NCBI GenBank assembly: GCA_021292105.1
Contig: CM037871.1
Coordinates: 34,426,997 to 34,490,996, forward strand
Source: Anadara kagoshimensis
Taxonomy: Eukaryota > Mollusca > Bivalvia > Arcoida > Arcidae
Length of the DNA stretch: 64,000 nt
Reading direction: 5' to 3'
Shown here: one piece after another, positions 1,804 through 55,559 of the stretch
Position numbering within the stretch: position 1 is the first letter of the stretch
How the letters are laid out: every line of letters begins with the position of its first letter
Position numbers and translations under genes: made by a program
The notes under the pieces: generated by a model
Databases searched by the model: none
The model's input: only the letters and a program-made list of their open reading frames with translations
What the model was told of the DNA's origin: nothing

Positions 1804-3934
1804 TTCTGTGTTTTGATTTTTTAATAGGAAAGGCTTTCCCGCATAGTCCATTCCTTTAAAATGAGAGTATGGTGCTGAAGTTCTGACACTTAAATTTAAA
1901 GTTTATTTAATAGCCTGATTTGACAATTGTAACATGAATGTGAATTTATGCATAGGAAATAAGTATGGATTATAATTTTGCTATCAACGCTGAATATCCA
2001 AACATCTATTAGAGAGATTAATAATAATCCAGCTGAGTCATCGGCTTGATATCGGGTCTTAACATATCAAACACCGGGTTTTTGCCAAGCCTAACAATAC
2101 CTAGACTGATTGAAGTTGTTCAGTACCACGCCTCAATGACAAACCTGTACTGGGAGTCCCTTATTTCCTGCTAATGTTATTAGTAAAATTAAAATAATCA
2201 TTTGCCTCTTATCAAATTCAAGTGAAGAACGGATGTAAATGCATATTCCGTCCTCGCAAACACAATAGATCAATTGTTAAAACACATTATGAATGTTTTG
2301 CGAAAAAAATTAAAATGCAAACCGTTTTACTAATTTCCGTGATATCTTGCTACGCTAATACATGCGATTTATACCTTTTCGGCTTTTTAAAATGATATTC
2401 TTTATCAAAAAGGGACATCGCGTGATGCAGTAAAAGATGATCTTGATGATTCTCAAATTGAATGTGATAATAAACAAATTAAACCAGTACACATATTATT
2501 TTCCACCTTAATACTTACATAGATATCTTAAGCTCTTCAGCTATTTCTTTGTTTTATGGAAAATAATTTTCTAATGGCGACTAGTAGATTTTAAATCCTC
2601 AAGTTCAAAACAGTCATGGCTTTTAAGTCATATTACATTGTATGTAGAAAATCGTTAAAAACAAAAAATACATCCAAACAAAAAGACTATAAGAATAAAA
2701 TTTGAACATCTTTAGAAAAAGATAACAGACAGAAAACAATGGAATAGAAAAATAAGGACAAATATTGAGCAGTCAGTGAAACTTAATCCGACAAGAGTAA
2801 AGATATAAGAGCAGTAAGATTCGTGCTTAATCTGGTCTTTTGTTGTTAATTTCTCTGTGTAGTCAATGGTTATATACAAATCAACGTCATCAGATATAGA
2901 TTATCATCAACATCATCATCAACACTTATCAACAGCTGGTGATAAAACGCTCTAATTCTGATCAATACACTGATTAATTTATCAACGAATCAGGTAATTC
3001 TCTGTATTATTTATTAATACAAGCCTTTTTATGGCCCACTTGTTAGTCTTTTTCGCATTAAAGAAATTCCCATGTGTATTTTGATGGCGATTGTGGTTTC
3101 CATCGTGTTAAATAAAGTACAAAGGGGTAATTTATTAGATTGTTTGTAACACCACCGTGTTTGTTGGTTATAAATTCATTTTGCATGTACATGGCTACGT
3201 TGCATGACAAAACATTGAAGTTTGTTTGTTAACGAATTGATTTGCTTTTTGCGTGTATTTGTTTTTTAAGCATGTGTGGTTTTAGCTTACTGTTTCCCTG
3301 CATGGCAATAGTTTTTTTTAAAGTTGTATTACGCCGAACTTTCACATTAACAAAACGTCATTTGAATCACGCATTGTTTTAATAACTGTAACAATGCATA
3401 TCAAAGCATGAAAATGCTACCTTTGTTATGTTCAATTGCTTAACTTCGTACTATTGTTGTTATATGTCAGCCCACAAATTGGCATCTTAATTACTTTATT
3501 ATTCTATCAAACGGGTTAATTATTTTAAAGTAAACGCTGATATTTATTGCTTGAGATCCATTTGTTTACATTTTGTACAAAGACCAAGTGCCATTACAAA
3601 CGTCTACACCCTATTTAGGTCCCAGTTCTGCAATCATATTCTTACTTTAATCTGGCAAAGTTGAAACTTAAATAATGTTCTTAGTTTTGAAGATATTCAA
3701 TAATCAAATATGCCATATCGAAGGTCACAAAATGCATATTGCATGCGTCGATATTTTAATTTGTTGAGACCCTCTATTTGCACCAAAAAATATTGCCTAA
3801 CTTGCCAAATTTAAGTTAAGGAAATCCCAGTTAAGAATTAACAAAAAAAACTGGCACCAGAATCAAGTATATCACGAAAGTATGCTGAAATACACATGCA
3901 TAAATGTTAAACACAAGACTTCATAAAAAATATG
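1804..3934. other. Featureless AT-rich intergenic sequence
   Basis: No gene, RNA gene or confident repeat is seen. There is a short ATC/CAT simple run near 2903-2930. Confidence 0.5.
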
Positions 3935-4225
3935 TTACCATCTGTATAACAATGTTCAATATCTTATCCCTATGAAGTATTTATCACCTGTGCAACAATA
4001 TTAAACCCCAGACTTTATTCTTGTACAACAATATTTAAGACCAGAACCAACCAACTTTATCTCTGACTCGTGTTTTACTATCTGTACAACAATGTCATAG
4101 ACCAGAATGTACTTTATCTCTGAAATGTGCAAAAACATTTCAAAATTAACCTAAAATATGTCTGAATAATTTTACCACTTGTACAGCAATGCTGAACATC
4201 AGAATCATTTCATATCTGATGAAAA

Positions 4226-4520
4226 TCAAACATACTAATCCATTTCCAAATCACAATCCAAAAGCAAAGTAAATAAAAAAATTGAAACTGACAAGTCAGG
4301 ATACACACGTTTCACCAGGGAAGTGAGGCCGGGTGCTCCGGAAGGGCAAGCACCACCTGTTAAGCATAGCTACATGTGTCGTCAAAATTGTGTGAAAGGG
4401 ACATGGAACTATGGGACGTCAATTATATCCAGTGTAATCCTAGACATAGAGACGTCAAACATATCAACAATACTGTGATGACGGCCATAAAACGTTTTGA
4501 GGGCTTTGATAAGCCTAGGC
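4226..4520 (+). repeat. Dispersed repeat family B (+)
   Basis: A long copy starting ATCAAACATACTAATCCATT, with the core AAGTGAGGCCGGGTGCTCCG and a distal half that contains GTGATGACGGCCATAAAACG. It faces the copy at 4903-5190 in inverted orientation. Confidence 0.75.
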
Positions 4521-4902
4521 TTGCAATATCCAAGAGTCACTAATTTGTTTGTAAGCAGCCTGCTTTGTTGTAGATAAATTCCTACTGTCTGTATAATAAT
4601 CAGGATCATAACAAACTTTATCTCTGAAGAATTTTACCACATGTACGACAATGTCGGAAGCTACATTGTCTCTGAAGAATAACTAACCATTTGTACAAAG
4701 ATGTTGAGCATAAGAACCTGCGTGATGTGTGAAGAATTTCACTACTTGAACAAAGTGTGAAACACCAGCATCATCGTATCTCTGGAGAATAATTTACCAT
4801 CTGTACAACATTGTTAAAAATCGACCAAAACAATTTTACTTCGTCTGAAAAATGTTAAACACAGAAAAATAATAATCGGAATCAACTTTACCTCTAAAAG
4901 TT

Positions 4903-5190
4903 TTATGGCCGTCATCACAGTATTGTTGATAAATTTGATGTCTCTGTGTCCAGGATTGCCCTGGATATATTTGACGTCCCGTAGTTTCATGTTACTTTTT
5001 ACTCATTTTTCTTTATACACGTGGCGGGTGAAGCTAGCTAAACAGAGGGGTGTTTACCCTTCCGTAGCACTTGACCTCACTGCCCTGGTAGAAGTTCACG
5101 TGTTTCACCAAACTTGTTAGTTTTAAAGTTTTCACTGTACTTTTGGATTGTGATTCGGACATTGGTTAGTATGTTTGTTTTTGATTACCA
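4903..5190 (-). repeat. Dispersed repeat family B (-)
   Basis: Reverse-complement copy of the 4226 element, from TTTTATGGCCGTCATCACAG to GTTAGTATGTTTGTTTTTGA. The 71-codon open frame inside it is repeat sequence, not a gene. Confidence 0.75.
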
Positions 5191-5384
5191 TCTGTACAAC
5201 ATTATCAAAGATCAACCAAAACTAATTTTTAAAATTAAATAGCGCAGAAAAATCCGAATGAAATTGACCTCTAAAGGAGTTTTTACTATCTGTAACTTGA
5301 CCTCTAAAGGATTCTTTACTATCTGTATAACACGGCTAGAGATAAGAATTAAAGAACTATAAAACGTCCAATTTATCCAAGAAA

Positions 5385-5490
5385 ATTGTGGATACAGAGA
5401 CATTGTACTTGTCACCAATATTTTGATGTGGTGTCATACAGTTTGAGGGTCTTGACTCGCCTAGGTTTGCAATATAATCACGTAAAGATC
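5385..5490 (+). repeat. Family B distal fragment (+)
   Basis: It matches the distal half of the 4226 copy: GAGACATTG..., then GTTTGAGGGTCTTGACTCGC and CTAGGTTTGCAATAT. Only the distal part is present. Confidence 0.55.
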
Positions 5491-5829
5491 AGCATCTAAT
5501 TTATCATTAATATTTGTACACCAATTTAAAAACAAGAACATACTTTATTCCAAAGATTTTTACCGGTAACAATTACAAGGTTTAGAAATAACCGAAGGAC
5601 TCATTTACAATCCATCGGGGATACATTAGGCGTAAATTGGTTTTTGTTACGGAATTCCCGTTAAATCAAAACATGAAAATATATATATAGTACAGCTTTT
5701 CCTTGGGAGTCTATACACTACTGGTTTATTTGGATAGAATACATTTACTAGTGTATTTATTCCAAGAAAATACCAGCGAATGTATTGCTTTTGGAAAGAA
5801 TTCCCTGGCGGAATAAATTTACTGTTACA

Positions 5830-20191: not shown

Positions 20192-20248
20192 TAACTCTGA
20201 GGAAAAATGAGCAAATCAACTCGATTTGCTCATTTTTCCTCAGAGTTA
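20192..20248. repeat. Perfect 26-bp-arm hairpin inside an array unit
   Basis: TAACTCTGAGGAAAAATGAG plus CAAATC (20192-20217) pairs perfectly with 20223-20248 around a 5-base loop. Other units carry only one arm (GATTTGCTCATTTTTCTGAG...), so the second arm is a local inverted duplication. Confidence 0.9.
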
Positions 20249-24835: not shown

Positions 24836-25187
24836 TTCATTCATCCGACCTCAGATCAGACTAGATTACCCGCTGAATGTAAGCATATCACTAATCGGAG
24901 GAAACTATTGTCTTCTCTTTTTGTTTGCTTGTACCTTTCATAAGCTTGTTTTTCTTTGTGTACTTAGTTGCATTGTTTAATTCCAGTTCGTGTTTCAGTA
25001 ACAGATTTTGGAGTTAAGTGGTCAGACGAGATTACCCGCTGAATGTAAGCATATCACTAATCGGAGGAAACTATTGTCTTCTCTTTTTGTTTGCTTGTAC
25101 CTTTCATAAGCTTGTTTTTCTTTGTGTACTTAGTTGCATTGTTTAATTCCAGTTCGTGTTTCAGTAACAGATTTTGGAGTTAAGTGG
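24836..25187 (+). repeat. 28S-rRNA-headed repeat: 166-bp tandem pair
   Basis: CGACCTCAGATCAGACTAGA followed by TTACCCGCTGAATGTAAGCA and TATCACTAATCGGAGGAAA reproduces, with a few substitutions, the conserved first 60-odd nucleotides of eukaryotic 28S rRNA. Similarity stops after GGAGGAAA. An unrelated about 110-bp body follows (CTATTGTCTTCTC... to GGAGTTAAGTGG). The unit from TCAGAC (24856) to 25021 is repeated at 25022-25187 with one difference noticed. This is not a functional rRNA gene. It is either a 28S-derived SINE or a captured rDNA fragment duplicated recently. Confidence 0.82.
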
Positions 25188-35505: not shown

Positions 35506-35625
35506 TGTCATGTGCTGTTTTTGAATTTCTATTAAAATAATGCATTAAAAAACAGCACATGACAAGTTGTTATGTGCTGTTTGAATGCATTATTTTAATA
35601 GAAATTCAAAAACAGCACATGACAC
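35506..35625. mobile_element. Family M hairpin element: inverted dimer with 4-bp duplication
   Basis: It is absent from copy A, which gives the empty site CCCTTTAAC. Flanks are CCTT at 35502-35505 and 35626-35629. It comprises two about 59-bp units, 35506-35564 and 35568-35625, in opposite orientation, each starting TGTCATGTGCTG or similar and ending CAGCACATGACA. The shared core is TATTAAAATAATGCATT. Each unit can fold alone, and the dimer is itself a long palindrome. Confidence 0.92.
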
Positions 35626-36239: not shown

Positions 36240-36672
36240 TACATATTATATCCACAATGTGTATGTACAACCCTCAGTATCAGGTCGAGTCCTTTTCGTA
36301 GCCGTATCACTACGAGTCTTGCGCGACGAGTAGTGATACAGCTACGAAAAAAGGACGAGACCTGATACGAAGGGTTGTACATACACACTGTGTATACATA
36401 TGATATTTTTATCTAACATTTCCTATTAGGTCATTAAAATAATAAAAAAAACAATACTTTATGTACATTTCACCACAGAAAACCACTGAACGTTTTGTAG
36501 TAATTACGTCATTGTTTATATTTGACAAATCGGAGATTCCCCAATGACGTCACAATGAGAAGTGCACGTGTACTTTACCGCCAATGTTGTATCACCACAC
36601 TGTAAGATTCTGTATCACGCGTGTTCGATAAAACTTGTATTTCATCAAATACAGACAGAAAAACTAGTTAGA
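36240..36672. mobile_element. About 430-bp foldback element in copy B
   Basis: It is missing from copy A, where ACAGAATACATAATATGAAA is continuous. It contains a strong inverted repeat: 36257-36315 pairs with about 36326-36389 (GTATGTACAACCCT versus AGGGTTGTACATAC at the base, TATCACTACGAGTC versus GACGAGTAGTGATA at the top). The right part has CAATGACGTCACAATG. Exact ends are uncertain. Weak inverse ends (CATATTAT...ATC) are visible. Confidence 0.72.
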
Positions 36673-37677: not shown

Positions 37678-39545
37678 GTGCAAACTCCAGTTAATATAAA
37701 GTCCAGACGACACAACTGCCCGCAAAGACAAATGATGCCCTACATTCAGTGCAAACACCAGTTAAAGTCCAGACGACACAACTGCCCGCATAGACAAATG
37801 ATGCCCTACATTCAGTGCAAACACCAGTTAAAGTTCAGACGACACAACTGCCCGCAAAGACAAATGATGCCCTACATGTACTTTCAATGCAAACACCAGT
37901 TAAAGTTCAGACGACACAACTGCCCGCAAAGACAAATGATGCCCTACATGTACTTTCAATGCAAACACCAGTTAAAGTTCAGACGACACAACTGCCCGCA
38001 AAGACAAATGATGCCCTACATGTACTTTCAATGCAAACTCCAGTTAAAGTCCAGACGACACAACTGCCCGCATAGACAAATGATGCCCTACATTCAGTGC
38101 AAACACCAGTTAAAGTCCAGACGACACAACTGCCCGCATAGACAAATGATGCCCTACATTCAGTGCAAACACCAGTTAAAGTTCAGACGACACAACTGCC
38201 CGCAAAGACAAATGATGCCCTACATGTACTTTCAATGCAAACACCAGTTAAAGTTCAGACGACACAACTGCCCGCAAAGACAAATGATGCCCTACATGTA
38301 CTTTCAATGCAAACACCAGTTAAAGTTCAGACGACACAACTGCCCGCAAAGACAAATGATGCCCTACATGTACTTTCAATGCAAACACCAGTTAAAGTTC
38401 AGACGACACAACTGCCCGCTTAGACAAATGATGCCCTACATGTACTTTTAATGCAAACTCCAGTTAAAGTCCAGACGACACAACTGCCCGCATAGACAAA
38501 TGATGCCCTACATGTACTTTCAATGCAAACACCAGTTAAAGTCCAGACGACACAACTGCCGCAAAGACAAATGATTCCCTACATGTACTTTCAATGCAAA
38601 CACCAGTTAAAGTCCAGACGACACAAGTGTCCGCATAGACAAATGATGTCCTACTTTCACTGCAAACACCAGTTTAAGTCCAGACGACACAACTGACCGC
38701 ATAGACAAATGATGCCCTACTTTCACTGCAAACACCAGTTAAAGTTCAGACGACACAACTGCCCGCATAGACAAATGATGCCCTCCTTTCAATGCAAACA
38801 CCAGTTAAAGTTCAGACGACACAACTGCCCGCAAAGACAATTAATGCCCTACATGTACTTTCAATGCAATCACCCGTTAAAGTCCAGACGACACATCTGC
38901 CCGCAAAGACAAATGATGCCCTACATGTACTTTCAATGCAAACACCCGTTAAAGTCCAGACGACACATCTGCCCGCAAAGACAAATGATGCCCTACATGT
39001 ACTTTCAATGCAAACACCAGTTAAAGTTCAGACGACACAACTGCCCGCATAGACAAATGATGCCCTACTTTCAATGCAAACACCAGTTAAAGTTCAGACG
39101 ACACAACTGCCCGCATAGACAAATGATGCCCTACTTTCAATGCAAACACCAGTTAAAGTTCAGACGACACAACTGCCCGCATAGACAAATGATGCCCTCC
39201 TTTCAATGCAAACACCAGTTAAAGTTCAGACGACACAACTGCCCGATAGACAAATTATGCCCTATTTTCAATGCAAACACCAGTTAAAGTCCAGACGACA
39301 CAACTGCCCGCATAGACAAATGATGCCCTACTTTCAATGCAAACACCAGTTAAAGTCCAGACGACACAACTGCCCGATAGACAAATTGTGCCCTATTTTC
39401 ATTGCAAACACCAGTTAAAGTTCAGACGACACAACTGCCCGCATAGACAAATGATGCCCTACTTTCACTGCAAACACCAGTTAAAGTCCAGACGACACAA
39501 CAATGATGCCCTACTTTCAATGCAAACACCAGATACAAGGAAGAC
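37678..39545 (+). repeat. 66/72-bp minisatellite, about 27 copies, long repetitive open frames
   Basis: The unit is ATGCAAACACCAGTTAAAGT ... CAGACGACACAACTGCCCGC ... ACAAATGATGCCCTAC, in a 66-bp form and a 72-bp form (with ATGTAC added). Both lengths are multiples of three, so two frames stay open. One runs 257 codons (37678-38451), with a 22/24-residue repeat containing CKHQLKFRRHNCPQRQMMPY. The other runs in blocks with QTPVKVQTTQLPAKTNDALH. Frames break at 38451 and beyond because of single-base indels. The array is preceded by a good 3' splice-site lookalike (TTTATTTCATTTTCAG, ending 37677) and followed by a donor-like GTAAGC at 39598. It could be an exon of an unknown transcript, but a non-coding minisatellite is the simpler reading. 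Confidence 0.9.
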
Positions 39546-48454: not shown

Positions 48455-48935
48455 ACTTGTTGTGGGAAAGTGAATATTCCTTGTCGTTGGTCTTTACTGG
48501 TTCACCTGGTATAAGTATAATGTGACTGGGTGAGTGGTATGCTTGTCTGTGGCGTACTGACTCTGACCTAGCACTGTAACAACTCCTAATGAAGTCCGAC
48601 GCCTAATGAAGTCCGGACTTCATTAGGCGTCGAAATTGCAACGCCTAATGAAGTCCGGACTTCATTAGGCGTTGACAATTTCGACGTTGCAATTTCGACG
48701 CCTAATGAAGTCCGGACTTCATTAGGCGTCGGACTTCATTAGGAGTTGTTACATAGCACGTTAGAGATGTCCTGAGTGCGCGTTAGTACAAGGCAGACCA
48801 TACAACACACTCGCACTTCACATGCATAAACGAACTTGTTCATAGATTAATCCATTGATATTAATAAAAAAAGTTCTTGTTGTGAATAGCTAAAAATCCC
48901 TAATGCGACGTTAAGCAACATTCAATCAACCAACC
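48455..48935 (+). mobile_element. SINE type 3 (+), head truncated and split by a palindromic element
   Basis: GAAAGTGAATATTCCTTGTC ... TAATGTGACTGGGTGAGTGG ... GGCGTACTGACTCTGACC before the insertion, and CCTGAGTGCGCGTTAGTACA ... ACGAACTTGTTCATAGATTA ... ATGCGACGTTAAGCAACATT after it, match the intact copy at 54992-55346. The tRNA-like head is missing. The insertion is the element at 48575-48753. Confidence 0.87.
48575..48753. mobile_element. 179-bp palindromic MITE containing three palindromes
   Basis: It lies inside the type 3 SINE, flanked by TAGCAC at 48569-48574 and 48754-48759. The ends TGTAACAACTCCTAATGAAG and its exact inverse extend far inward. Within the arms and centre, a perfect palindrome built on CCTAATGAAGTCC|GGACTTCATTAGG occurs three times: 48598-48631 (34 bp), 48639-48674 (36 bp) and 48697-48730 (34 bp). 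No coding frame. The element is almost wholly self-complementary and could form a three-lobed cruciform. Confidence 0.93.
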
Positions 48936-54991: not shown

Positions 54992-55346
54992 TGGAGGCCG
55001 CGGTGGCCTAATGGATAAGGCGTCAGTCTACAAATCCAGGTTCTCTCACCGCTGTGAATTTAAGCCCCGCTCATACCACATGTGAGGAAGTGAATTTCCG
55101 TTGCCGTTTGCCCTTACTGGTTCGCCTGGTAACAGTATAATGTGACTGTACGAATGTTACGCTTGTCTGCGGCGTACTGACTCTGTGAACTAGCACTTTA
55201 AGTCGCCCTGAGTGCGCGCTAGTACAAGGCCGACGCACTTCACATGCATACACGAACTTGTTCATAGATTAATCCATAGAGATTAATACAATAGTTATCG
55301 TCAAGAATAGCTGAAAATTGCTGATGCGACGTTATCAACCAACCAA
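54992..55346 (+). mobile_element. tRNA-headed SINE type 3, intact, with 14-bp target duplication
   Basis: The head GGCCGCGGTGGCCTAATGGA / TAAGGCGTC is strongly tRNA-Arg-like, with an A-box (TGGCCTAATGG). The B-box GAATTTAAGCC is weak. The body matches 48455-48935. The tail is GCTGATGCGACGTTATCAAC then CAACCAA. CGTATGTGTAATGA at 54978-54991 and 55347-55360 is an exact target duplication. Confidence 0.93.
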
Positions 55347-55559
55347 CGTATGTGTAATGAACAACTCCAATGGATCTAGAGTATATAACTTATTTGGTTG
55401 ATACTCATTTTTTATAATCTTCTTTTTTAAAGTCTCCGATTGTTCTTGAAGGATTATTTGATATATAAAAAAGAAATATTTATTTAAAAAGAAAGAACAA
55501 GAAAAAAAAACACATTTCAACATCATACTGTTAGGCTTGTCCTTGTTGTTATCAGCAAG

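Follow-up and report, generated by a model that had tools for sequence, protein, structure and literature searches.

The 179-bp insert at positions 48575-48753 of the window (the whole stretch of DNA that we analysed, 64,000 nucleotides long) is very likely a non-autonomous element of the cut-and-paste type that derives from element ends alone and arose by contraction within a family of gene-less foldback elements. The genome contains a non-coding, transposed family with TG..CA ends, 6-bp GC-centred target site duplications (TSDs), lobed ends and short members made of the ends only, hereafter minis; some of these minis are identical in sequence to the deletion products predicted from the large elements. 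The palindrome is thereby linked to a simple rule: when the two ends of a foldback element carry direct repeats, the element can collapse into a predictable series of miniature inverted-repeat transposable elements (MITEs). Because one genome contains the large elements, the intermediates and the end products together, it allows direct tests of how MITEs are born and how perfect palindromes survive in a eukaryotic genome.

Structure of the insert and its target site

The insert is flanked by a clean 6-bp duplication, TAGCAC (48569-48574 on the left and 48754-48759 on the right), and is bounded by the terminal inverted repeats (TIRs) TGTAACAACTCC and GGAGTTGTTACA. It is composed of an exact 164-bp palindrome (82-bp half arm) with 0 substitutions, interrupted by a single asymmetric spacer piece of 15 bp, CGTTGACAATTTCGA (48670-48684), which overlaps a 14-bp tandem repeat of 2.1 copies at 48670-48700. 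Within the palindrome lie three lobes, each a perfect palindrome centred on TCC|GGA (48597-48632, 48639-48674 and 48696-48731; the insert, its duplications, lobes and spacer are given without strand). An earlier sequence-only reading had recognised the three palindromes and their centres but gave their sizes as 34, 36 and 34 bp, whereas all three measure 36 bp. Its broader description, of a 179-bp and nearly wholly self-complementary insert with a TAGCAC duplication inside a SINE, is confirmed in coordinates, TIRs and duplication.

The SINE that was hit lies on the + strand and is divided into a left part (48461-48568) and a right part (48760-48930). Its type may point to a mollusc. A second SINE copy on the + strand (55081-55347) is free of the insert and was used as a stand-in for the empty site, a role already proposed for a second SINE copy from the letters alone. 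It runs through the insertion site with 225 identities over 264 aligned bases and no insert, and the alignment score was 261 when one TAGCAC was kept and 258 when both were kept, a small difference.

The insert is not due to chance. Its three lobes are the only perfect palindromes of at least 18 bp in the 64-kb window, and in a chance test a 20-mer of the insert gave 6 strand matches against 0 expected. The predicted DNA fold has an energy of -101 kcal/mol, compared with -20.3 ± 3.3 kcal/mol for shuffles (z = -24.45). When the 64-kb window was scanned for structures with an exact TIR of at least 10, a TSD of 5-9 bp and a length of 40-800 bp, the 179-bp insert alone was recovered, and ten mononucleotide shuffles produced one such structure in total. 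The first 112 nt of the insert (48575-48686, + strand) are identical to the same positions of the left, two-lobed end in 17 of 17 large elements, which were chosen by that match. The insertion is probably recent, because its arms carry no substitution and because of this identity to 17 left ends, weakened as evidence of age by the way in which the copies were picked. The earlier reading was right that a MITE-like element had entered the SINE with a genuine target duplication.

Two other identities were considered and rejected. A parvovirus-like inverted terminal repeat is disfavoured by the energies of a three-lobed cloverleaf (-61.8 kcal/mol, as drawn and not optimised) and a single long hairpin (-99.5 kcal/mol), and the TSD points to transposition. 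A solo LTR was set aside as well, since a nearly wholly palindromic insert is atypical of LTRs.

Large foldback elements of the family

The genome searched was the element's own (1.115 Gb in 36 contigs). The exact 29-nt end occurs 416 times genome-wide (203 + 213), compared with 0 for a reversed-pattern control. A similarity search with the 179-bp element returned 1380 candidates, and among the 40 of these that were scored, three match over the full length: the window copy (179 bp), a copy on contig C13 (165 bp) and a copy on contig C6 (186 bp), each with an exact 6-bp TSD. The other 37 of these 40 match over approximately nt 1-112 and then continue into different sequence. Among 100 listed places of the 29-mer, 26 neighbouring pairs delimit complete elements, of which 7 are shorter than 300 bp, 2 measure 300-2000 bp and 17 measure 2.2-4.6 kb. 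A further 117 ends have a base other than G next to the 29-mer; 20 of these, read from 100 listed, include cases of lobe loss, lobe gain, decay and differing interiors.

For the large elements, 20 of the 37 partial-match places were each taken as a 10-kb stretch. A right end (at most one mismatch) was present at 3.1-6.1 kb in 17 of the 20, giving 17 complete large copies. Ten of them have exact 6-bp TSDs, three a 5-bp match, one a match at 5/6 bases, and three (L038, L042 and L045) no matching TSD. In all 17, the left end carries two lobes and the right end a single lobe; the left ends were preselected by exact match, and the right ends are free of that selection. Their inverted-repeat arms pair in main blocks at approximately 86-94% identity (shorter in L028), so that long and internally repetitive inverted arms take up most of the element, as in foldback elements. 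An internal tandem array with a 67-bp unit was found in L027, L028 and L042 (by full reading in L042 and by Tandem Repeats Finder in the other two), and each unit is an inverted pair of the 13-bp motif CCTAATGAAGTCC. This motif is present in 9-24 copies per strand in all 17 large copies. The left-end hairpin of L027 and L028 consists of 42 bp repeated in tandem. The interior of L028 carries a 3-kb insertion (approximately 2698-5691) that has no ORFs longer than 87 aa in the examined stretch and contains tandem repeats of approximately 167 bp.

Between copies, mean identity is 93.6% for left arms (134 of 136 pairs) and 94.4% for right arms (136 of 136), compared with 90.5% between the left and right arms of one copy (17 of 17); this sample is biased toward young copies, chosen by their perfect ends, and more decayed ends exist. 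From these sequences, the large elements are read as having spread from an asymmetric parent. Right ends are 99.8% identical to their majority sequence over the first 50 bp and 95-99% over the next 450.

No stop-to-stop ORF longer than 155 aa was found in the 17 large elements, and three of their longest ORFs had no Pfam match above the cut-off. Three copies with odd interiors contain repetitive ORFs of up to 268 aa; inspected by eye, these held no recognisable transposase, and the copies were rejected as autonomous parents. The transposase with the element's ends for which a search had been proposed was not found in the 17 large elements and the three odd-interior copies.

The target preference was assessed from 36 exact TSDs, one per distinct site (10 from large elements, 13 from the 80-bp form, 5 from the 122-bp form and 8 from other minis, including the window copy). 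A GC centre (NNGCNN) is present in 26 of 36 (binomial P ~2e-32 against the GC dinucleotide frequency of 0.029 in the window), and C occupies position 4 in 33, with G in the other 3, giving a symmetric consensus of approximately RWGCWY. The window TSD, TAGCAC, has the GC centre and fits this target. The combination of a GC-centred 6-bp target with TG..CA ends had no confirmable superfamily match, and it provides a handle for the helper transposase.

Minis and their predicted origin

The left end of the large elements has four exact copies of CCTAATGAAGTCC in direct orientation with a single copy in the right end. If every left copy is joined to that right copy, the 17 large elements yield predicted minis of 63, 80, 122 and 165 bp. 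One observed mini, L047, is identical to the predicted product at 80/80 positions and is an exact 80-bp palindrome, without a matching TSD; L050 is identical at 122/122 and L002 at 163/165. The window copy agrees at 165/165 positions with the predicted 165-bp end-to-end deletion product, with one 14-bp gap, and is thus a three-lobed, foldback-derived MITE with a 14-bp extra piece. Allowing up to three mismatches genome-wide, 24 loci carry the 80-bp form (six of them exactly, the rest with one mismatch in 7, two in 5 and three in 6) and 10 loci the 122-bp form (2 exact), representing 23 and 7 distinct sites, respectively, after merging shared flanks by eye. Over all flanks, an exact 6-bp TSD borders 14/24 copies of the 80-bp form (22/24 with at most one mismatch) and 6/10 of the 122-bp form (7/10 with at most one mismatch). 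With related minis at dozens of loci, these short, non-coding elements with TIRs, TSDs of fixed length and many copies have the features of MITEs. The expectation that copies with one, two and three lobes would exist was borne out elsewhere in the genome by minis of 80, 122 and 165 bp.

Other minis, of 42, 67, 75, 134, 186, 187 and 204 bp, fall outside the simple motif-to-motif ladder. Clear interior pieces are retained in those of 186, 187 and 204 bp (L003, L052 and L053) and a short piece in that of 134 bp (L051); aligned with its best predicted product, L003 has 158 identities, 6 mismatches and 23 gap positions. The 75- and 42-bp minis look like palindromes trimmed at the centre. The 42-bp element (L070, G000:C12:15552349-15552390) consists of two 20-bp ends around a 2-bp centre and has an exact 6-bp duplication, GTGCTG. 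We rejected this form as a mobile unit: it occurs at one locus only within 3 mismatches, and local deletion is likelier. Several minis form pairs with the same flanks at two places (L099/L100, L101/L103, L102/L104 and L097/L107, one pair on the small contigs C34 and C35), which suggests segmental duplication or haplotypes that were left unmerged.

The large elements have inverted-repeat arms, an internal 67-bp array and ends built of a 42-bp hairpin repeat (two lobes on the left and one on the right), with the 13-bp motif occurring in either orientation, both at the ends and in the interior. We propose that the interior is lost by deletion between direct motif copies of the two ends, whether through single-strand annealing, slippage or failed gap repair, so that one, two or three lobes remain as a palindrome; the window copy would be the three-lobed product with its 14-bp extra spacer piece. 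A putative transposase supplied in trans would cut at the TG...CA ends and insert the element into 6-bp sites with a GC centre. This transposase probably binds the repeated motif, an analogy taken from Galileo, in which the TIR repeats contain sites bound by the transposase THAP domain (PMC3688188). We infer a deletion pathway and a transposase that acts in trans and binds the motif; minis may also move on as minis. The window copy itself adds a complication. Its inverted stretch (48685-48753, - strand) matches nt 1-69 of the L042 left end and only nt 1-56 of the L042 right end, and its right end is therefore of the left type. A simple left-plus-right deletion is thus not the whole story there, and the copy needs an element with two left-type ends, an end conversion or a second event.

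It is quite possible, if short of probable, that the minis of 80 and 122 bp constitute genuine MITE subfamilies which spread by transposing as minis, the window copy being a rarer and larger relative. The 23 and 7 distinct sites counted by eye, many with a TSD of their own, agree with such spread. However, deletion between the same repeats would yield identical products repeatedly, and among the ten 122-bp copies there was no variant common to distinct sites. Transposition of minis and contraction in situ are compatible, and both may act.

Growth in the opposite direction appears improbable. The sequence-only reading had suggested a chain-grown MITE, its smallest unit copied into its own arms; the larger lobed forms would then have grown out of the 80-bp palindrome, either through fold-back copying at TCC|GGA or through tandem duplication of 42 bp. 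A size series of 80, 122, 165 and 179 bp does exist, and L062 has an end with three lobes as judged by eye. Furthermore, the 42-bp repeat in the left-end hairpin of L027 and L028 indicates that lobe multiplication within the terminal repeat must have happened at some time. However, the 122- and 165-bp minis keep the left-end spacers in the right order, as deletion from a large element predicts, and the interior of the large elements is retained in several minis. We favour contraction over chain growth because the predicted products match observed minis and other minis hold interior sequence.

Inverted repeats are a classic source of read and assembly errors, and L047 lacks a TSD, but an assembly artefact, or a palindrome formed in situ without a mobile element, is extremely improbable given the TSD, the SINE empty site and the many insertions with TSDs of their own (all in assembly sequence rather than reads), and the objection is weakened because like structures recur at many separate sites. 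Six loci of the assembly carry exact 80-bp palindromes.

Relation to known transposons and other repeats in the window

The closest known systems are Tetris/DAIBAM and Galileo, and by structure the family is a foldback element with its MITE. Tetris/DAIBAM of Drosophila virilis (PMC4079207), likened here by description only, is likewise a foldback element with no conserved ORFs, internally repetitive TIRs, a MITE that shares its ends and no autonomous copy found. However, Tetris has TSDs of 8-10 bp and is placed in Mutator (PMC4079207), whereas those of the present family are 6 bp long and GC-centred; compared by description, the present family also differs in the hairpin lobes that form its extreme ends and in the range of lobe numbers seen in its minis. 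Galileo, a foldback-like element of the P superfamily, also has long, internally repetitive TIRs, variable repeat number, copies made of two TIRs and multiple transposase binding sites in the repeats (PMC3573991, PMC3688188), but its type has a TSD of 7 bp. The 6-bp TSD thus argues against Mutator-type foldbacks (8-10 bp), the Galileo type (7 bp) and Ginger1/Ginger2 (4-5 bp). The last were rejected, as the TSDs given for them are 4 bp (Ginger2/TDD 4-5 bp; PMC2836005).

Membership of GingerRoot/IS3EU is possible. GingerRoot families have 6-bp TSDs and mostly TA..TA but occasionally TG..CA ends (PMC10045372), and the present family has both a 6-bp TSD and TG..CA ends. A helper transposase of this integrase-like type is nevertheless a doubtful candidate: the group is defined by an integrase-like transposase, which was not found in the members of our family that we examined, and complete IS3EU families are described as always ending in TA..TA (PMC10045372). 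It appears improbable that the family belongs to an undescribed transposase lineage that recognises the hairpin or cruciform DNA of the end lobes; lobe number would then tune transposition, and the pure 80-bp palindrome would suffice by itself as the minimal substrate and transpose in that form.

The 6-bp TSD is shared with Polinton/Maverick elements. These carry their own polymerase and capsid-type genes, and no ORF longer than 155 aa occurs in the 17 large copies, which may be non-autonomous. Dada elements have TSDs of 6-7 bp, and TAGCTC, the target of some lamprey families, is also found among the TSDs here (PMC3706591). We rejected Dada: its elements insert into small-RNA genes, and its U6/U1 families are described as having no TIRs (PMC3706591), in contrast to the perfect TIRs and varied, dispersed flanks seen here. 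Satellite-carrying Helentrons of the Pacific oyster are similarly non-autonomous with internal tandem repeats (PMC7492417), but theirs are subterminal inverted repeats with a 3' palindrome, compared with the long TIRs and 6-bp TSDs of the present family.

No description of a foldback family with this signature was found in the literature searched, which has most subscription journals outside its scope. Among the matches listed for six 11-mers of the element, the papers look unrelated, judging from titles and the beginnings of abstracts. Exact 26-, 22- and 23-mers of the element had 0 matches in viral contigs and the 22-mer 0 in genome contigs, blastn against phages gave matches of 22-24 nt only (E ~7), and Rfam had 0 hits at gathering scores and ARAGORN 0 tRNAs; the collections are viral, prokaryotic or phage, so these searches have little bearing on animals.

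Several other repeats lie in the window. A near-palindromic mini-element of 119 bp (35506-35624) has a terminal 13-mer that is repeated inside (two per orientation, at most 2 edits). With what may be a 4-bp duplication, CCTT, it is possibly a head-to-head dimer MITE. A nested inverted repeat of 148 bp (36249-36396) has outer arms of 48 bp and inner arms of 26 bp with no clear duplication, and a 57-bp hairpin (20192-20248), in which a 5-nt loop joins perfect arms of 26 bp, likewise showed no duplication. Two 166-bp tandem copies (24856-25187) are 99% identical, had no Rfam match above gathering and start with a stretch that we take to resemble the start of a 28S rRNA gene. Finally, a tandem array with a 72-bp unit (37697-39501) comprises approximately 26 copies, with a higher-order period of 348 bp and a strong strand skew.
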